Origin: Verrucomicrobiota bacterium
GTDB lineage: Bacteria > Verrucomicrobiota > Verrucomicrobiia > Chthoniobacterales > Terrimicrobiaceae
Reading direction: 5' to 3'
NCBI GenBank assembly: GCA_026398255.1
Contig: JAPLTG010000041.1
Location: 1-35,509, forward strand
Length of the DNA stretch: 35,509 bases
The notes under the pieces are model-generated. The model had not been told where the DNA came from. It saw nothing but the letters and a program-made list of their open reading frames with translations, and searched no databases. Below are positions 1-9,748 of the stretch, in pieces. The first letter of the stretch is position 1; each line of letters opens with the position of its first letter. Made by a program: the position numbers and the translations under genes.

Positions 1-164
1 GCTGGGATATCTACGCAAAAACACTTCAAAATCTTTCGAAATTTGACCTCCGAAATGTGTGACTTTTTTATATACTTGTTTTTCAATGATGGTGAATATT
101 TTAACCATATTCATTCTCTTTAAACTGGACAAGACCCAAACTAAAAACCATATAAAACCATCAA
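1..164 (+). promoter_or_regulatory. AT-rich leader upstream of the envelope operon, weak promoter candidate
   Basis: No gene is supported here. A TTGACC box at 43-48 lies 19-22 bp upstream of an AT-rich stretch with TTTATA (68-73) and TATACT (71-76). The spacing is long for a sigma-70 promoter, so this is only a candidate for the start of the five-gene operon at 165-6830. The window begins too close to this point to see what lies upstream. Confidence 0.25.
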
Positions 165-779
165 ATGAAAAAAAACCTGCTAGCTATCGCCATCGCCATC
201 ATTGCCGCGACCTCCGTTCAAGCCGACCAAGTCATTTATAAGACAAAAGGCACCGCAACTATTATTGGTCGTGGCATTGAACAAAAAATGAAACCGGATT
301 TTGGATACTGGGTCTATGATCCGGATGCAAAAAGGCTAACTGCTATTGTTGCATTAACAATGCACGGCAAGAAAATCATTCAAGTGGTTGAGTTAGATAA
401 ATTGAATGTGATTTCAGTGAGAGGAGCCAACGGCAAACACTATACATCAATTGCAAAAGCTGAGAGTCCAAGCACACAACTCCCTGCGGCAATGTGCGAG
501 GGGGTGTATGCAATAGGTCAAGACGATGTGATTTCACTGGATGGTAATCATACAAAAATAGTGCCAACATCATTCAAGACCTTGGGATTTACCCACATCA
601 ACTTTGGGGGGGGACACTTTGTAACAAATCAGAGCCAAGGCTCCGCCAAGCTTGATTTAAAATCGACACAAGAGACAAATATCAATAAAATTGATCATGC
701 ATCAACTGTGAACATGTTAGTTAATAATCTAAAAGGAAAAGGCTACAGCGAAAATCCAAGGCTTTTAAAGTCGAAGTAA
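165..779 (+). CDS. small exported protein of unknown function
   Basis: The 204-residue product starts with a textbook signal peptide: two lysines, a hydrophobic run of Leu/Ala/Ile, and an Ala-X-Ala-like end near residue 20 (SVQA). It is therefore predicted to be periplasmic or outer-membrane associated. I recognise no family. The mature part is polar and has no further membrane segment. The gene is clearly more AT-rich than most of the window, like the first third of the next gene. No Shine-Dalgarno sequence is obvious before the ATG; the start was chosen because it gives the signal peptide. It ends 11 bp before the TPR-CHAT gene and probably heads that operon. The function cannot be inferred beyond likely participation in the same envelope process. 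Confidence 0.8.
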   Translation: MKKNLLAIAIAIIAATSVQADQVIYKTKGTATIIGRGIEQKMKPDFGYWVYDPDAKRLTAIVALTMHGKKIIQVVELDKLNVISVRGANGKHYTSIAKAESPSTQLPAAMCEGVYAIGQDDVISLDGNHTKIVPTSFKTLGFTHINFGGGHFVTNQSQGSAKLDLKSTQETNINKIDHASTVNMLVNNLKGKGYSENPRLLKSK

Positions 780-790
780 AAAATTAAAAC

Positions 791-3700
791 ATGTTGCGTC
801 TTGCCAGTATACTATTTTTATTTTTTTCTACCATTGACTTGCACTCGCAACCAATGGATGCAGAACTTATAAAGACATTTAAGATTCAAGAAGAAGGAAT
901 TGCATATTTTACGAATGGAAATCCAGAAAAAGCTCTGCCTCTACTTTTAGAATCAAAAAAACGCTTAGAAAATAAACTAGGAAATAAGCATTTAGCGGTA
1001 GCTGCTGCATATTATATTCTAGGAGGAGCTTATTTTGATTTAGAGAAAGATAACGAGGCTCTGATTTATAATGAGAAAGCCTTGGCGATCTACGAAAAAA
1101 CAGATCATCAGTATACTGAGAATTTACTCGCTTCAATTTCGTGCAGTTACCAAAGGCTAGGCGAGCATAAGAAAGCGATACCTGCCCTAGAAAAACTTGC
1201 TGCAATAAAGAAAGCCAAATTTGGATACACCAGCAATGACCACGGAATAGCATTAAACAGCATAGCCAATTCTTATCAATCATTAGGCGAGCATGGCAAG
1301 GCGGCAGCGATTCGTGAGGATGTATTAAAAATAGTATTAAAGATTTTTAATAAGGATAGCCCAAATGTTATTACAACTTATTTAAATTTATCTTTAGACT
1401 ATATGCATGCTGGTGAGAATGAAAAAGCTCTACCATTTACCCATCAGGCTTTGGAGATCTTCGAAAAAAACAAAGGAAAAGAGCACCCCGACACGGCAGC
1501 AACTCTTAATGATTTAGCTTCTCTTTACCAAGCAACCGGAGACTACGAAACAGCACTACCGCTCTTTGATCGTGCCATCGCGATCAATGAAAAAGTTCTT
1601 GGCCCAAAACATCCCAATACGGCTGCAAGCCTGAATAATCTCGCTTTTCTTTACTGCGCAATAGGAGACTATACAAAGGCCGTGCGAACCTACGAAAGCG
1701 CCTTGGCTATTCTGGAAGAAGTTCTTGGGGCGGAACATCCCAATACGGCTGCGATCCTAAACAATCTGGCCTTTGCTTACAAATCAATGGGAAACTATAC
1801 GAAGGCCCTGCCGATCTATCAAAGCGCCTTGGCGATCCGAGAAAAATCTCCAGGGCCGGATAATCTCGAGACAGCGCAGAGTCTTAACAATTTGGCTTCC
1901 ATTTACCAAGACATTGGAGACTACGCGAAGGCCCTGTCTCTCTACGAACGCGGTCTTACGATCTATGAAAAAGCTCTTGGGCCTGAACATCCTGACACGG
2001 GCGCAAGCCTTAACAATCTGGCTTCTCTCTATATATCAATGGGAGAACTTGCAAGGGCACAACTCCTCCATGAACGCGCCTTGGCAATACGGGAAAAAAC
2101 TCTTGGGCCAGATCATCCTGATACGGCCGCCAGCCTCAACAATATGGCTTTTCTTTACTCAACTATAGGGGGTTACGCAAAAGCTCTGCCGCTTTATGAA
2201 CGCGCCTTGGCAATTACGGAAAAAGCTTTTGGGCCAGATCATCCCACTACAGCTATGAGCCTGAATAATCTGGCCTCTGTCTATAACTCAATCCGAGACT
2301 ACACCAAGGCCCGGCCCCTTCTCGAACGCACCTTGGCGATCAATGAAAAATCTCTCGGACCAGAACATCCCAATACGGCCGCGAGCTTAAACAATCTGGC
2401 TTTTCTTTTTAGCTCCATGGCAGAATATGAGAAAAGCCTTCCGCTTTACGAACGCGCCTTGGCAATCCGAGAAAAAAACCTCGGGCCAGAACATCCTGAT
2501 ACGGCCGCGAGCTTAAACAATCTGGCTTTTCTTTTTAGCTCCATGGCAGAATATGAGAAGAGCCTTCCGCTCTACGAACGCGCCCTGGCTATCCGAGAAA
2601 AAAACCTCGGGCCAGAACATCCTGATACGGCCGAGAGCCTCAGTGATTTAGCTATTCTCAAATACCGAAAGGGCGAAATCTCCAAAGCGCGTGCTTATGC
2701 TGAACGGCACATCACAGCCAAGCAGAGTGAATTACAAACCATCCTCACCCAAGATGAGGGCACTCGACTTTCGTGGCAGCATGTGAATCAATCGTTTTGG
2801 TTAGCTTGTTTATTGGAGCCGGGTGCGATCGCGGATTTGGTGCTTCGCATGAAAGGGGTTGTTTTGGATTCCTTGGTGGAAGATCGCTCGATCGCGCTGG
2901 CGGCCCAGAGTAGCGGTGAAGGCGTGGAGAGATTGAAAAAAATCGCCCAACTTCAAGCCCGCCTTTCCAAGTTGGCATTTGAACCCGGTCAGGATGAAGA
3001 AGTCACCCGCTTGAAAGGGGAAATCAGCCAACTCCAAAGAGACATGGCGGCAAAATATCTGGGCCGCAACCTCCAACGCGCAAGCGCCACGATCGCCCAA
3101 GCGGATATCACCGCCAAGTTAAGCGAGTGCAGCGCACTCATCGATCTTTTTCAATTCCCAGATCCCAAGCTCAAGGGGGGCGAAGCCGAGTGCCTCGGTG
3201 CGATCCTCATGGCACCGAACAACAAGCTCGAATTTGTTCGTATCGACGGGGCCAAAGCCATTCGCCAAGCCATCGAATCCCTGCGCCAAGGCATCGCCAA
3301 TGGCGATGCCGCTTGTGTCAAAGAAGAAACAGAGTTTCTCTCGGATAAACTCTGGCGACCCATCGCTCATAAGATTCCTGAAGGCACCAACCAATTGGTT
3401 ATCAGCCCCGATGGTGACCTGAACTTCCTATCCTTTGCGGCTCTTCTCGGCGAGGACGGTAATTTTTTAGCCGAAAGCTACGACATTTCCTATGTCGGGA
3501 ATGCCCGGGATTTGTTGCGGGAAAGCAATCCAAACCCTCCAAATCGGATTCGCATTTTCGGCAACCCGATTTTCGACCAAACCACTGAGCCTGTTGAGGA
3601 AAATCGCTTCTCATTCCGGAGTATGGAGGTAGATGTGTTCGGTCAGATTCAACTCCCTTCCTTGCCCGGAACGGAAAAGGAGTGCGCCGAAATCCAAAAA

Positions 3701-4468
3701 ATTGCCGCCAACAGCGGGTGGGATCTGGAAACCTTCACCCGTGATCGGGCCAACGAAAAAAACATTCGCGGAACATCCAAGCCCGGCATCCTGCATCTGG
3801 CCACCCATGGATTTTATCTCAACTCCTACACGCCGCCCGGAGACAACACTAGGGGGATGTCCGTAATCGGAATCAAAGCCCCGCAAATCAACAAAAAAGG
3901 CGTGGACCCCATGCGCGCGAGCGGTATTGCTCTTACTGGCGCTCAATCCACACTGCGTTCATGGGCTGAGCGCAAGGCTCCCGATCCCGAGAACGATGGC
4001 ATCCTTACGGCTGAGGAGGTAGCGGCCCTTGATCTGCAAGGCACATGGCTTGTGTCGCTCTCCGCCTGTGAAACCGGCGTGGGCGAAGCGCGATCCGGCG
4101 AGGGAGTGCTGGGGCTACGCCGATCTTTCATGATGGCCGGGGCCGAAAACCTCCTGATGACCCTCTGGCCGGTCGCAGACCAAACCACATCCGAAATCAT
4201 GGCCGACTTTTACCGAGAGGCACTCAAGACCGGCAATGCCCCCGGTTCTCTCGCCAAAGTCCAACGCGAATGGCTCGTCAAACTGCGGAAAGAAAAGGGC
4301 CTGCTGGAAGCCGTGCGCGATGCCGGCCCCTTCGTGATGGCCACCATTGGCAAGCCGTTGCCACCTCTCCCCCGCGAACCTGCTATACAAGAATCCCTGC
4401 TGGATAAAGTCGGCAGGAAAATTGAAGCGCTCATCCAATCCAACAACGCCGACATCAAGAACAACTGA
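791..4468 (+). CDS. exported TPR-CHAT protein (caspase-like peptidase domain)
   Basis: The product has 1225 residues. Residues 1-19 form a signal peptide ending at LHS. Residues about 30-640 hold about fifteen tetratricopeptide repeats of the 42-residue kinesin-light-chain type, with recurring EHPDTAASLNNLA and LPLYERALAIREK motifs. The C-terminal third (about 830-1200) is a CHAT domain, the caspase/separase-related cysteine peptidase fold. The expected dyad is visible: His1006 in HLATHG and Cys1093 in LSACETG. TPR-CHAT proteins are known as protein-activated proteases, with the TPRs sensing a partner. The export signal would place this one outside the cytoplasm. It is the largest gene of a five-gene operon (11 bp gap before, 3 bp after). 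Base composition shifts along the gene: AT-rich through roughly the first 700 bp, then near the window average. The substrate is unknown. Confidence 0.93.
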   Translation: MLRLASILFLFFSTIDLHSQPMDAELIKTFKIQEEGIAYFTNGNPEKALPLLLESKKRLENKLGNKHLAVAAAYYILGGAYFDLEKDNEALIYNEKALAIYEKTDHQYTENLLASISCSYQRLGEHKKAIPALEKLAAIKKAKFGYTSNDHGIALNSIANSYQSLGEHGKAAAIREDVLKIVLKIFNKDSPNVITTYLNLSLDYMHAGENEKALPFTHQALEIFEKNKGKEHPDTAATLNDLASLYQATGDYETALPLFDRAIAINEKVLGPKHPNTAASLNNLAFLYCAIGDYTKAVRTYESALAILEEVLGAEHPNTAAILNNLAFAYKSMGNYTKALPIYQSALAIREKSPGPDNLETAQSLNNLASIYQDIGDYAKALSLYERGLTIYEKALGPEHPDTGASLNNLASLYISMGELARAQLLHERALAIREKTLGPDHPDTAASLNNMAFLYSTIGGYAKALPLYERALAITEKAFGPDHPTTAMSLNNLASVYNSIRDYTKARPLLERTLAINEKSLGPEHPNTAASLNNLAFLFSSMAEYEKSLPLYERALAIREKNLGPEHPDTAASLNNLAFLFSSMAEYEKSLPLYERALAIREKNLGPEHPDTAESLSDLAILKYRKGEISKARAYAERHITAKQSELQTILTQDEGTRLSWQHVNQSFWLACLLEPGAIADLVLRMKGVVLDSLVEDRSIALAAQSSGEGVERLKKIAQLQARLSKLAFEPGQDEEVTRLKGEISQLQRDMAAKYLGRNLQRASATIAQADITAKLSECSALIDLFQFPDPKLKGGEAECLGAILMAPNNKLEFVRIDGAKAIRQAIESLRQGIANGDAACVKEETEFLSDKLWRPIAHKIPEGTNQLVISPDGDLNFLSFAALLGEDGNFLAESYDISYVGNARDLLRESNPNPPNRIRIFGNPIFDQTTEPVEENRFSFRSMEVDVFGQIQLPSLPGTEKECAEIQKIAANSGWDLETFTRDRANEKNIRGTSKPGILHLATHGFYLNSYTPPGDNTRGMSVIGIKAPQINKKGVDPMRASGIALTGAQSTLRSWAERKAPDPENDGILTAEEVAALDLQGTWLVSLSACETGVGEARSGEGVLGLRRSFMMAGAENLLMTLWPVADQTTSEIMADFYREALKTGNAPGSLAKVQREWLVKLRKEKGLLEAVRDAGPFVMATIGKPLPPLPREPAIQESLLDKVGRKIEALIQSNNADIKNN
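2401..2652 (+). repeat. two nearly identical 126-bp tandem units inside the TPR region
   Basis: The units beginning at 2401 and 2527 each encode one 42-residue TPR (FLFSSMAEYEKSLPLYERA and onward) and differ at only a few bases. The other TPRs of the gene are much more divergent at DNA level. This points to a recent single-repeat expansion by slippage or unequal crossover. The similarity also reaches about 30 bp upstream of each unit. Confidence 0.9.
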
Positions 4469-4471
4469 ACC

Positions 4472-4930
4472 ATGACGAAAATTACGAATCTAACACTCTT
4501 ATTACTCCTAGCTGCGAGCCTTACGGCCTGCAACACCACAACCCATGTGCTAATCGGAAAAAAACGACCACCAATCATGCCCGAAGAGGTTAAACTCTAC
4601 ACAAATCCTCCCAAAAAATACGAGCAAGTTGCTGTTGTCGATGCAAATAGTGTAAATACTTTCCGTCTCACCCAGCAAGGTGCTATGGATGCGACCATAG
4701 CGCGACTCAGGCACGCAGCGGCAGCATTGGGAGCAAATGGAATCCTCCTGAACAATGTCGGCAATGCCCCATTTGCCACTGTCACCCAAGGCTCGGCCTA
4801 CGGAACTGCAAACGCCGTGGCTTATGGGAATAGTGCCTACGCCAATTTCTCGGGCAACTCCATGGCCATGACCTCAACGCTCATGATGAAAACCGCAGGC
4901 GGAATGGCGATTTATGTTTTGGAGGAATAA
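4472..4930 (+). CDS. predicted lipoprotein, unknown function
   Basis: The product has 152 residues. A hydrophobic signal sequence ends in a lipobox Leu17-Thr-Ala-Cys20, so it should be lipidated at Cys20; Asn follows at +2. The mature part begins basic and proline-rich (KKRPPIMPEEVKLY), and then has an alpha/beta-looking stretch containing ARLRHAAAALGANGILLNN. The 'alanine-rich helix followed by GANG(I/A)' pattern resembles small DUF4156/YbjQ-like lipoproteins that follow a signal, but I cannot assign a family. The C-terminal third is rich in Gly, Ala, Asn and Ser. It starts 3 bp after the TPR-CHAT stop codon and shares one base with the next gene, so it is surely cotranscribed and probably translationally coupled. 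Confidence 0.85.
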   Translation: MTKITNLTLLLLLAASLTACNTTTHVLIGKKRPPIMPEEVKLYTNPPKKYEQVAVVDANSVNTFRLTQQGAMDATIARLRHAAAALGANGILLNNVGNAPFATVTQGSAYGTANAVAYGNSAYANFSGNSMAMTSTLMMKTAGGMAIYVLEE

Positions 4931-5583
4931 TGGCAGGTGAGTTGCCTGAACCTCATAAGATGTATTCAAAATCCACTTCTGGAAAATTTATTATAAAACC
5001 TGCGCTGGCTGGTTTTGTTTTACTCGGTCTTTTGGCGGCTTGCGAAAATAGGTCAACCGAAAATGATCTCAAAGAATCGGAAAAAGCAAAATCAGTAGCT
5101 CAAGTTGTCGATTTTCAAAAGCGGACTCGCGCCAGCGCAGAATGGTTCAGCGATGTTGATCCAGAGGTGAAATATACCTTTGAAATTCAAGAAGCCTTAC
5201 TATCCGATGACGCTCCCCGCCTGTTGATCGCAGAACTTTTAGATATTTCCAAAAGCGGCGGTAAAATCATCGCCTCTTTCAGTGAATATTCTTTTCTATT
5301 TGAAGTCATCTTCCGCATTGAACTTGCCCAAGCACAAGCCGATGAGATTATTAAAAAAGTTCCCGGCGAGGATCGTGGGATAGCAACATTTGTGCTGGCA
5401 TTTCGCCCGGAATCTGTGACTCGCCCGCTCCTTATGATTGATGCCAAAGGTAATGACGAATATGCCGAGGTCGAAATTGAGAACTCCCAAGCGACGATAA
5501 TCACTGGCACTTGCATTGCATGGGAATATCTCGGAACAAGCGCGATCAGCATGCCGGATTTCATCGAAAATCAGTCTAAATAA
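4930..5583 (+). CDS. predicted lipoprotein, unknown function
   Basis: The product has 217 residues. The ATG at 4930 overlaps the previous stop (TAATG) and is preceded at 4921-4925 by a strong GGAGG, which decides this start over the internal ATG at 4960. A hydrophobic segment (ALAGFVLLGLLAAC) ends in a lipobox with Cys38. The leader is therefore unusually long; from the internal ATG the cysteine would be residue 28. The mature region has no motif I recognise and looks like a soluble alpha/beta domain with many acidic residues. Position in the operon suggests a function with the exported TPR-CHAT protein. Confidence 0.82.
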   Translation: MAGELPEPHKMYSKSTSGKFIIKPALAGFVLLGLLAACENRSTENDLKESEKAKSVAQVVDFQKRTRASAEWFSDVDPEVKYTFEIQEALLSDDAPRLLIAELLDISKSGGKIIASFSEYSFLFEVIFRIELAQAQADEIIKKVPGEDRGIATFVLAFRPESVTRPLLMIDAKGNDEYAEVEIENSQATIITGTCIAWEYLGTSAISMPDFIENQSK

Positions 5584-5585
5584 AC

Positions 5586-6830
5586 ATGAAAAATCTCATT
5601 CTCCACATCTGCCTCCTCGGTGTCCTCTGTGGTCAAATCCAAGCCGCCACTGTCGAGGCCGAGGGCCGTGCGCCCGGCGACATGAAAACCGCCCGCGAGC
5701 AGGCACTCGCCGATGCCTTGCGCGAAGCCGTGCGCGTTGGCACCGGCGTTGATGTCCTTAGCTCGACGGGTGTCTCGGATTTTACCTTGGACTATGACCG
5801 CATCCTTAGCTCCGCCTTTGGCCATGTGAAGAGCTACAAGGTGATCAGTTCCGGGTTGGGCAAAGACCAAATTTACACGGTGAAAGTGAAAGCCGAGGTG
5901 GAGAAAGGCGCGCCTGATGCCAAGAACCCCCTCGCCCTTCGCCAGATCGTGCTTCTCAAGGGGTCGCCGCGTGTTTCGATTGCTGTGCAGGAGCAGATCG
6001 ACGGAGCGCCCGCGCCGACCAAATACGCCCAAGGCATCATGGAGCAAACGGCGAGAGATTTGCAGTTCAACCTTGTCGATGTCGGCACGGCCAGCGGTCA
6101 AGAGAGCCGCATGGCCGCTCGCGATGCCATTCTCGGCAATGATAAGAACTCCAAGCTTCGTAACGCAGGCATTTCGCAGAAGAGTGACTTCTTGATCGAG
6201 GGCAACATTGTGGCCCGCTATGTCGGCCGACAAACTTTTTACGGAAGCCTGCCCCAGCATGTGTTCTCGGTCGGCGGAGAACTCCGCGCCATCCGCCCCG
6301 AAACCGGCGAAGTTGTCGCCGTCGCCGCGTTGCCCGGCACCGAGAATGTGGAAAGCGACCTCGACTCCAAGGAAATGGCCGCGCGGGATGTGATTCAAAA
6401 AGTCCTTAGCAGTGCCGGAGGCCAGAAAGGCGGAACTCCGCCCCTCTTCAACAAAATCCTCGCCCGCTGGGTCACCGAAACCGACCTCGGCGCCATGAAG
6501 CGCCTGGAGTTCACCGGAATCAGCTCCGATGATTTCCAGAAAATCCAAACCGACTTCACCGACACGGAAAAAATCAGCGCCGTGTGGCCCCGCGAGTTCG
6601 ACTCGCAAGGCATCAGCGTCCTCGATGTGGAAACGCGCCTCGATAACATGGGCCTCGGTCAGGAAATCACCAAAGCCACAGGCGGCCGCATGAAGCTCGA
6701 CCGCTCCACCGAAAACCTCCTCGCCTTCAATGCCGATGGGTCGAAATCCGTTCCGGATTCCGCTACTGGAAACGCCCAAGGCGATGCCAAACCCGAGGAA
6801 AAGAAAAGCAGTTGGTGGAAGGTTTGGTAG
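5586..6830 (+). CDS. exported protein with FlgT N-terminal-like domain
   Basis: The product has 414 residues with a signal peptide (residues 1-20, ending IQA). Residues about 22-110 match the pattern of the FlgT/LPP20-type N-terminal domain: an initial strand, a helix rich in Ala (AREQALADALREAVR), a hydrophobic stretch around a YDRILS motif, and a closing strand YTVKVKAEVEKG. The middle part (about 130-260) resembles the nucleotide-free CsgG/TolB-N-like fold found in envelope-assembly proteins; this is inference. The C-terminal tail is charged and ends in SSWWKVW. The start lies 2 bp after the preceding stop codon, closing the five-gene operon. Its last 242 bp before the final three codons are present a second time at 7720-7961, downstream of the toxin-antitoxin pair. 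Confidence 0.8.
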   Translation: MKNLILHICLLGVLCGQIQAATVEAEGRAPGDMKTAREQALADALREAVRVGTGVDVLSSTGVSDFTLDYDRILSSAFGHVKSYKVISSGLGKDQIYTVKVKAEVEKGAPDAKNPLALRQIVLLKGSPRVSIAVQEQIDGAPAPTKYAQGIMEQTARDLQFNLVDVGTASGQESRMAARDAILGNDKNSKLRNAGISQKSDFLIEGNIVARYVGRQTFYGSLPQHVFSVGGELRAIRPETGEVVAVAALPGTENVESDLDSKEMAARDVIQKVLSSAGGQKGGTPPLFNKILARWVTETDLGAMKRLEFTGISSDDFQKIQTDFTDTEKISAVWPREFDSQGISVLDVETRLDNMGLGQEITKATGGRMKLDRSTENLLAFNADGSKSVPDSATGNAQGDAKPEEKKSSWWKVW

Positions 6831-6966: not shown

Positions 6967-7028
6967 GAAAAAGTTGAGGACAACGCAAGCGTCTTCAAAA
7001 AAAAGTTGCACGAAATTCGGTATTGCCG

Positions 7029-7454
7029 ATGATACCTTGCGTGTTTGCAATCCTCGACACATCTGTTCTGGTGTCTGGCCTTCGCTCAAAGCGTGGTGCT
7101 AGCTTCCAGATCATCCAGGCAATTCGCGCCGGGCATCTCAAGATTTCGGTGTCTGTGGCACTTGTTATGGAATATGAGTCTGTTTTGCTCCGTCCGGGCC
7201 TGATTCCAAGTTTCACAAAGAATGAGATTCATCAGATTTTGGATGCTGTCTGCCTCATGGCCCAGCATCAAAAGGTGTTTTTTGCATGGCGACCTTTCCT
7301 CAAAGACCCCAACGATGACCTGGTTCTGGAACTCGCGGTTGCAGCATCGGCCCCCTACATCATTACACACAACATTTCGGATTTTGCTGGCTCGGACACA
7401 GTAGGCGTTCGAGCAATTACACCATCCGCAGCCATTGAAGCAATAAAGCTATGA
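7029..7454 (+). CDS. PIN-domain toxin (putative ribonuclease)
   Basis: The product has 141 residues and resembles the COG1569/TIGR00305 PIN family. PIN toxins are metal-dependent RNases, usually acting on tRNA, rRNA or mRNA. The acidic residues expected in the active site are visible: Asp10 in ILDTSVLVSG, Glu48 in LVMEYE, Asp96/Asp97 in DPNDD and Asp118 in ISDF. ATG at 7029 is taken as start; a TTG two codons earlier is also possible. The stop overlaps the next gene's ATG by four bases (ATGA), the usual toxin-antitoxin coupling, here with the toxin first. The pair is flanked by the duplicated gene end described at 7720-7961. Confidence 0.9.
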   Translation: MIPCVFAILDTSVLVSGLRSKRGASFQIIQAIRAGHLKISVSVALVMEYESVLLRPGLIPSFTKNEIHQILDAVCLMAQHQKVFFAWRPFLKDPNDDLVLELAVAASAPYIITHNISDFAGSDTVGVRAITPSAAIEAIKL

Positions 7455-7693
7455 CTACATTATCATTACGCGTTCCAGACTCCCTCCATCGTGCAATCAA
7501 AGAACTCGCATCGCAAGATGGTTACTCGATGAATCAATTTTTGATCACAGCGGCCGCCGAGAAGCTTTCCGCTTTGGAGACCGTTGACTATCTGAGAGCA
7601 CGCGCCAAGCGGGCCAATCTCGATGATTTCGACAAGTTGCTTGCACGCGTTCCTGACACAGAACCTGATAAGGGCGAAGAACTTCAAAGATAA
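7451..7693 (+). CDS. ribbon-helix-helix antitoxin (HicB-like)
   Basis: The product has 80 residues. The N-terminus (TLSLRVPDSLHRAIKELA) followed by GYSMNQFLITAAAEKL is a clear ribbon-helix-helix DNA-binding fold, as in Arc/MetJ and the C-terminal part of some HicB proteins. The acidic tail would be the part that covers the PIN toxin. It overlaps the toxin gene by four bases. By analogy with other such operons the dimer should repress its own promoter. The inverted repeats just upstream of the toxin (6919-6966) are candidates for the operator, but no match to a known RHH box is evident. Confidence 0.88.
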   Translation: MTTLSLRVPDSLHRAIKELASQDGYSMNQFLITAAAEKLSALETVDYLRARAKRANLDDFDKLLARVPDTEPDKGEELQR

Positions 7694-7719
7694 TTGGCGG
7701 GGAGTGCGAGCGCATTGTG

Positions 7720-7961
7720 GCGCCGTCTGGCCCCGCGAGTTAGACTCGCAAGGCATCAGCGTCCTCGATGTCGAAACCCGCCTCGACAACATCGGCCTCG
7801 GATAGGAAATCACCAAAGCCACCGGCGGCCGCATGAAGCTCGACCGCTCCAGCGAAAACCTCCTCGCCTTTAATGCCGGCGGATCGAAATCCGTTCCGGA
7901 TTCCGCTACGGGAGCCGCGCAAGGCGATGCCAAGCCCGAGGAAAAGAAAAGCAGTTGGTGG
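7720..7961 (+). pseudogene. second, 5'-truncated copy of the 3' end of the FlgT-N-like gene
   Basis: This stretch aligns without gaps to 6577-6818. By eye 19 of 242 positions differ. Seventeen codons are changed: 11 synonymous, 5 missense and one nonsense (CAG to TAG near 7803). There is no start codon or 5' part, and the copy stops matching at the tryptophan pair, three codons before the end of the intact gene. It is a remnant, not a working gene. Together with the intact copy it brackets the hairpins and the PIN/RHH pair. The excess of silent third-position changes shows that the two sequences diverged while both were under selection as coding DNA. Confidence 0.93.
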
Positions 7962-8030
7962 CCTTTTTGAATTAGGGAATTGCAAAATCTCACAAGACCT
8001 CACATATTCTCACATTATATTTTGGAGAAT

Positions 8031-9143: not shown

Positions 9144-9356
9144 ATGCAATACAAGCCCACGAAAAATCAAATGAACGCAGCAGGTGACTGCTCGACTGGC
9201 GCGGCGGTGCAATTGTTCAATGCAGACGAAGGGACATTTCTTGAAATCCTGCGCGACGATGCCACAGGGCATATTTCATTGGACTTTCCTCCTCTTGAAG
9301 ATGGCCTCCAGATTCCTGATATTGTTTGTCATCAAATGAACAAATGGAAACCTTGA
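9144..9356 (+). CDS. small hypothetical protein
   Basis: This open frame of 70 codons begins 15 bp after the Fic gene and ends just before the next lipoprotein start. The predicted product is acidic with no signal peptide or membrane segment and matches nothing I recognise. No good ribosome binding site is visible. The compact position between two genes on the same strand is the main support; it could equally be a spacer. Confidence 0.4.
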   Translation: MQYKPTKNQMNAAGDCSTGAAVQLFNADEGTFLEILRDDATGHISLDFPPLEDGLQIPDIVCHQMNKWKP

Positions 9357-9358
9357 GC

Positions 9359-9748
9359 ATGCGTCTTCTTCTGCGCTCCGCGAAAATCTTCAGCCTCGTC
9401 GGAGGGGCGGCTTTGGTTTGTGCCTGCACACCGCAACGCGAGTTCGTTCAGTTTGGCAACCCGGGCACTTTCCACCCTGGCCCACGGCACTCGGGGGGTG
9501 GATCCAGCGGCCATAATGATGAATACGATTCCTATGAATTGGTTGATCACGGCGGCGTGCCGAATCAAGGCATCCCGCCGATGTATTCTGGGCAGCAAGC
9601 AGGAGTTTTACAGGCAGGCCCTCAATACTACACAAGCCCTGAGCCATATTACGGCCAAGATGTCAGAAACTACACTGACGCACCCGTGATCATGCGAGAT
9701 GCGAGGTATCCAAACGCCCCGAACAGAATCATCCCAAGATCGTGGTGA
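9359..9748 (+). CDS. small lipoprotein, proline/tyrosine-rich
   Basis: The product has 129 residues from the ATG at 9359. A basic N-terminus and a hydrophobic stretch end at a possible lipobox Val20-Cys-Ala-Cys23. The mature part is low in complexity, rich in Gly, Pro, Tyr, Asn and His (for example GPQYYTSPEPYYGQD). Such sequences are typical of disordered outer-membrane-associated proteins. An in-frame ATG at 9344 is a possible alternative start. The function is unknown. It is the first of three small envelope genes in the same direction. Confidence 0.65.
   Translation: MRLLLRSAKIFSLVGGAALVCACTPQREFVQFGNPGTFHPGPRHSGGGSSGHNDEYDSYELVDHGGVPNQGIPPMYSGQQAGVLQAGPQYYTSPEPYYGQDVRNYTDAPVIMRDARYPNAPNRIIPRSW

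Follow-up and report, generated by a model that had tools for sequence, protein, structure and literature searches.

The best-characterised bacterial CHAT proteases act inside the cell. CHAT and C14 proteases are described as effectors of other bacterial conflict systems (PMC10907252), and caspase-fold proteases provided with a likely export signal or a membrane segment together with TPR or WD40 repeats have already been counted in prokaryotes, according to the portion of the survey considered here (PMC3501461). Another set of envelope proteins relevant to the present locus comes from the flagellar motor of Vibrio, whose H-ring, located beneath the outer membrane, is built by FlgO, FlgP and FlgT (PMC6375700; PMC7990780), the products of neighbouring genes (PMC3948606). 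Our search of the open-licence literature found no description of FlgP/FlgT-like proteins accompanied by exported caspases. Here, we addressed an operon encoding an exported TPR-CHAT protein and its counterparts among 286 sampled genomes. The operon lies in a stretch of 35,509 nucleotides (hereafter the window), which is contig C33 of a 2.6-Mb genome assembled into 44 contigs (G000).

The window operon and its exported TPR-CHAT protein

Five open reading frames follow each other on the plus strand (165-779, 791-4468, 4472-4930, 4930-5583 and 5586-6830) with gaps of 11, 3, -1 and 2 bp, so that the initial annotation, which described five same-strand genes with junctions of 11 bp or less, is confirmed by the coordinates over 165-6830. 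It also proposed that the TPR-CHAT protein and its four operon partners are all exported, and this agrees with the signals found by a heuristic based on hydropathy and cleavage motifs: signal peptides are predicted for the first product, the TPR-CHAT protein and the FlgT-like protein, and lipoboxes for the two lipoproteins. The first product, A204 (204 aa; 165-779), matched no known domain in Pfam and NCBIfam and has an ortholog in one genome alone (G010, about 54% identity). The TPR-CHAT gene (791-4468; 1225 aa) is followed by the lipoprotein LP1 (152 aa; 4472-4930; lipobox LTAC), with an ortholog again in G010 alone (81%) and a weak match to DUF4156 (PF13698, E=0.0015) staying below the cut-off; LP1 may be RcsF-like, and its structure model, built from 2 sequences, reached a pLDDT of 35, the alignment being too shallow. 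The second lipoprotein, LP2 (217 aa; 4930-5583; lipobox LAAC), has a start that shares 1 bp with the stop of LP1; it is devoid of known domains, and its ortholog is likewise found in G010 alone (50%). The last gene (5586-6830) encodes a FlgT_N-like exported protein of 414 aa. An Rfam scan of the window gave no matches, and promoter and terminator scans returned counts not above those of shuffled sequences.

In the TPR-CHAT protein, TPR_12 repeats score 645 bits and the CHAT domain (PF12770) 189 bits against a cut-off of 24, the latter covering residues 849-1162 (3335-4276, plus strand), while the tandem repeat search delineated 126-bp (42-aa) repeats at 1589-2694. His1006 (codon 3806-3808, H of HLATHG) and Cys1093 (codon 4067-4069, C of SACETG) are invariant in 12/12 aligned CHAT domains, which bears out the intact dyad reported previously. 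With a domain over the curated cut-off and the His/Cys pair in place, the product is assigned to the CHAT family as a predicted protease. Comparison of the CHAT region with PDB gave chance matches only in a single-sequence look-up, and the best match of the profile to a CHAT protein had E=0.07.

This gene is the sole CHAT gene of its genome, and CHAT is present in 68 of the 286 genomes sampled. Sixty CHAT genes were read together with their surroundings, interior stretches of the same proteins serving as the control: by the same heuristic an export signal stands at the N-terminus of 41/60 CHAT proteins of the class versus 3.4% of interior segments. Orthologues lacking the signal peptide had been named as evidence that would speak against an exported system; the closest ones (G010, G001 and G155) retain it. 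The idea that an exported CHAT protein is exceptional did not hold, the exported form being the norm in the class, and the proposed contrast with the cytoplasmic Craspase and gasdermin systems is true for the characterised proteins and not for the CHAT family. Judged by reading the sequences, the recurrent neighbours of the other CHAT genes in the class look like putative CHASE2-type sensors, two-partner-secretion proteins and ECF sigma factors.

Downstream of the operon, a PIN/ribbon-helix-helix toxin-antitoxin pair (7023-7693) separates the FlgT-like gene from a partial second copy of its 3′ end (7719-7964, plus strand), which is 94% identical in DNA to the gene of G015 and 92% to the window's own. 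Since the partial copy is nearer to the G015 gene and a different PIN gene follows the FlgT-like gene in G010 and G015, the site 3′ of this gene looks like a hotspot filled by recombination. The place of a small lipoprotein (CAPQREFVQFGNPGTFHPGPRHSG...; 9326-9748) on the 3′ side of the FlgT-like gene is kept in several genomes (L015 at 9940, L003 at 2553, and L040), beyond the variable toxin-antitoxin or Fic genes. A second cluster of exported proteins with another FlgT_N-like protein was observed in G015 (L041, contig C12), no protease being recognised within this 9-kb contig.

A split operon and its counterparts in other genomes

The first 137 positions of the window (1-137, minus strand) are the end of a multicopy insertion sequence, with the terminal repeat GGGTCTTGTCCAGTTTA present as its reverse complement at 121-137 and adjoined by a 7-bp target duplication, AAACTAA (138-144). 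The 17-bp end occurs in 11 genomic copies, most of them 100-220 bases from contig ends, and the insertion sequence ends of G000 fall into two types. The tail of contig C26 reads AAACTAA followed by the insertion sequence, and C33 the insertion sequence followed by AAACTAA; when C26 is paired with the contigs that bear the other end type, C33 alone shares the 7-bp target duplication, a length seen also at the C37 copy and at C10-C42 (AAAGTAT). In G010 the junction is uninterrupted, the homologue of a 146-aa lipoprotein (lipo146) being directly followed by A204. Complementary end types, the target duplication and the intact junction of G010 thus allow joining C26 to C33. As a separate observation, the same element, with its 17-bp ends and 7-bp duplications, breaks the G000 assembly, besides at the start of the window, at C10, C13, C19, C25, C26, C28, C32, C37 and C42.

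The end of C26 encodes, in order, a FlgP/LPP20-like protein, a lipoprotein in a frame of 128 codons, a CsgG/DUF4384 protein and the 146-aa lipoprotein, with gaps of 4, -11 and 4 bp, and this part of the operon is divergent from a gene pair for a MASE1 histidine kinase and a LytTR response regulator. An alignment of the divergent intergenic region, inspected for LytTR operators, revealed no convincing repeat. Based on the C26-C33 junction, the operon before insertion therefore comprised nine genes, all with export signals by the heuristic. The window operon represents the distal half of an envelope locus conserved among Verrucomicrobial genomes, which the coordinates of the window truncate, and owing to the contig ends the initial annotation could not see most of the conserved partners. 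With the operon interrupted by the insertion sequence in G000, transcription of the five window genes may differ there from that of the intact form.

Searches seeded with G000 and a few relatives revealed a conserved pattern in which the regulator pair is followed by a divergent series of a FlgP-like gene, a CsgG/DUF4384 gene, an exported C14 caspase and/or TPR-CHAT protein, and a FlgT-like gene. The full pattern is found in G010 (C14, CHAT and further C14 genes), G155 (CHAT upstream, four C14 genes) and, over two contigs, G238. G007 has the regulator pair and the FlgP-like, DUF4384 and C14 genes without FlgT; FlgP-like, DUF4384 and FlgT-like genes stand together in G046, G198 and G239, the last adding three C14 genes; and CHAT adjoins DUF4384 in G001, G004 and G083. 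On contigs of which many are short, FlgT-like genes occur without a CHAT neighbour in G011, G015, G025, G046, G198 and G239, and CHAT genes without a FlgT-like gene in G001 and G004, while in G060, G075 and G097 a FlgT_N-like gene has no recognised protease nearby. Of the 34 DUF4384 genes in the 286 genomes, 20 have a CHAT or C14 gene no further than 20 kb away on their contig, versus 0.88 expected by density, a count that treats related genomes as independent and thereby overstates the number of separate events. In a tree of 45 sequences, the island CHATs of G000, G010, G001, G004 and G155, although drawn from two taxonomic families, group in a single clade supported at 99/98; the island CHATs of G238 and G083 fall outside it. 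Judged from gene content, the predicted protease slot is occupied by C14 caspases, by TPR-CHAT or by both, while scaffold-type genes recur. The locus is very probably a conserved envelope caspase/CHAT island. One exported C14 caspase of such an island (L114, 4879-8103) carries an N-terminal domain of the lysozyme-inhibitor LprI type (39.6 bits), another link to the envelope, and similar N-termini were noticed by eye in G155 (L154 and L169).

The partners kept are, as predicted from sequence, the FlgP/LPP20-like, CsgG/DUF4384 and FlgT-like proteins, the C14 caspases and the two-component system. The suggestion that the TPR-CHAT gene is locked in an operon with two lipoproteins was not upheld, A204, LP1 and LP2 recurring in G010 alone and with two genes inserted; the five-gene order, looked for in other genomes, is found in this one other sampled species, where one inserted gene (294 aa) separates CHAT from LP1 and the other (416 aa, ATPase-like) separates LP2 from the FlgT-like gene. 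The proposed control of the protease by the two lipoproteins found no support, and both are absent beside other island CHATs. A204, LP1 and LP2 are lineage-specific accessories, possibly ligands or substrates.

A conserved divergent regulator pair and export signals (by the heuristic) on all products would also fit housekeeping quality control of the envelope or developmental proteolysis under MASE1/LytTR, acting on exported substrates and leaving the FlgP/FlgT-like proteins without a scaffold role; HetF provides a CHAT protein serving cell division and development (PMC8406250). The patchy spread of the components, with FlgT_N in 13/286 genomes and DUF4384 in 28/286, is however unlike that of a housekeeping system and renders this explanation improbable.

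Flagellar-ring-like partners and unequal divergence

The assignment of the scaffold-type proteins is of uneven depth. Seven of nine FlgP-like proteins match LPP20 (PF02169; best 8.8e-7), the copy of G000 itself staying below the curated cut-off (20.4 versus 25.9 bits), and the FlgP-like profile matches FlgP-type chains of the solved flagellar motors 8z5n, 9yec, 9yfg and 9yds (1e-9 to 2e-8) as well as a putative lipoprotein, 9hmf (3e-15). The FlgT-like protein of the window is just above the FlgT_N cut-off (PF16548, 29.4 versus 28.8 bits), its homologues matching in 12/12 cases, and its profile touches FlgT chains in the same motor structures weakly, with E of 0.02-0.04 and over the N-terminal domain alone; beyond residue 105 no Pfam match was obtained, and the structure model, based on 4 near-identical sequences, was too poor to compare (pLDDT 31). 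The CsgG/DUF4384 gene occupies the place where FlgO would sit. Its product was considered as FlgO and rejected: only DUF4384 and weak CsgG were matched, with no FlgO chain or family and no PDB match.

Resemblance to the Vibrio H-ring families (PMC6375700; PMC7990780), along with the P-ring protein FlgI encoded on contig C42 of G000, raises the question whether the island is a part of the flagellar apparatus, its FlgP/FlgT-like products being ring components and its proteases either incidental or engaged in the processing of flagellar parts. With FlgI as the only flagellar marker and with draft genomes, no FlgI match was obtained in six genomes that bear a FlgT-like gene (G025, G155, G238, G239, G120 and G198), which is the reason to consider the protein as probably not flagellar there. 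Furthermore, none of the genes in the vicinity of the locus was recognised as flagellar, and two congeners that do have FlgI and few contigs missing (G007, 98% complete) are devoid of the FlgT-like gene. A flagellar assignment is therefore very doubtful. That relatives without a detectable P-ring gene keep ring-like proteins and swap the type of protease suggests an uncharacterised envelope protease system.

Comparison of G000 with G010 demonstrated that divergence is distributed unequally. Identity reaches 93% in the CHAT domain and 85% in the linker, and falls to 56% in the TPR part and 35% at the N-terminus; the protein of G010 is 168 aa longer, which is the length of four 42-aa units. Among the other products, A204 (54%) and LP2 (50%) are outliers beside the FlgT-like protein (88%), histidine kinase (89%) and response regulator (95%). 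Between window positions 791-2690 and L039, the 42-aa TPR units were seen to vary in both number and sequence in congeners with 93% identical CHAT domains. The diverging sensor half leans towards a recognition role.

Such a rapidly changing sensor half next to a nearly constant CHAT domain, and the divergence of A204 and LP2 beside neighbours at 88-95%, may also be expected for an envelope-stress or contact-triggered system of death or conflict, in which the exported protease would be a killing or suicide effector, the diversifying TPR sensor would meet a non-self or damage ligand, and the lipoproteins would act as immunity or sensor partners, CHAT and C14 effectors having precedents elsewhere (PMC10907252). 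Against this, the PADLOC defence scan gave only generic TPR matches and one weak candidate, the island is accompanied by a regulator pair and is not in a recognised defence island, and no immunity gene was identified. We regard this alternative as unlikely.

Proposed mechanism and comparison with known systems

What the sequences provide directly is the content and order of the genes, the predicted export signals, the catalytic residues, the recurrence of the locus and its presence in genomes without a FlgI match. The reading that accommodates these data best is a protease of the envelope, under regulation, that docks on a scaffold resembling the H-ring, to which we give a probability of about 0.45, its mechanistic part being inferred. 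The MASE1 kinase/LytTR regulator pair would set the production of the operon proteins; the FlgP-like and FlgT-like proteins would assemble, on the periplasmic side of the outer membrane, into a ring or disk, similarly to the Vibrio H-ring but independently of the flagellum; the exported protease would dock on this scaffold via its TPR superhelix; and proteolysis of envelope substrates would be released by a signal from the envelope or from contact, with recognition handled by the fast-evolving TPR part and the lipoproteins. A bolder and rather speculative extension would regard a flagellum-independent outer-membrane ring of the FlgP/FlgT type as a platform for interchangeable exported TPR-CHAT and C14 proteases, that is, as the periplasmic equivalent of a platform that activates caspases, with a rapidly diversifying sensor half and MASE1/LytTR control. 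If a conserved locus does export both CHAT and C14 proteases next to relatives of flagellar ring proteins, regulated caspase-type proteolysis would take place in the bacterial envelope as well, and the H-ring proteins of flagella would belong to a broader family that also serves outside flagella. The locus also offers a handle on DUF4384, the function of which is not known and which has a caspase or CHAT gene nearby in over half of the cases sampled.

With Craspase, the TPR-CHAT protein (Csx29) of which has the same combination of TPR superhelix, CHAT domain and His/Cys dyad, the window protein contrasts in its export signal (by the heuristic), shared with its orthologues, and in its position among envelope proteins; Cas7-11 and Csx30 had no match among the operon proteins scanned. 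Nor was gasdermin matched among them, A204 and LP2, which match nothing, leaving room for a very divergent form. Prokaryotic caspase homologues (Asplund-Samuelsson et al. 2012) share the caspase fold and likely export signals with the island proteases, but the survey (PMC3501461), in the portion considered, covers C14 metacaspases with no mention of CHAT, of FlgP/FlgT-like partners or of a two-component pair. HetF of Anabaena is similarly a CHAT and TPR protein at the cell envelope, differing in that its CHAT domain is N-terminal (aa 1-555), that it has one membrane segment and that it is a divisome component (PMC8406250). With the FlgO-FlgP-FlgT set of the Vibrio H-ring (PMC3948606) the island has in common FlgP-family and FlgT_N genes placed together with that of a third exported protein; it differs in that the third protein is of CsgG/DUF4384 type and not detectably FlgO, in its occurrence in genomes without a FlgI match, and in the exported proteases inserted among the ring-type genes.
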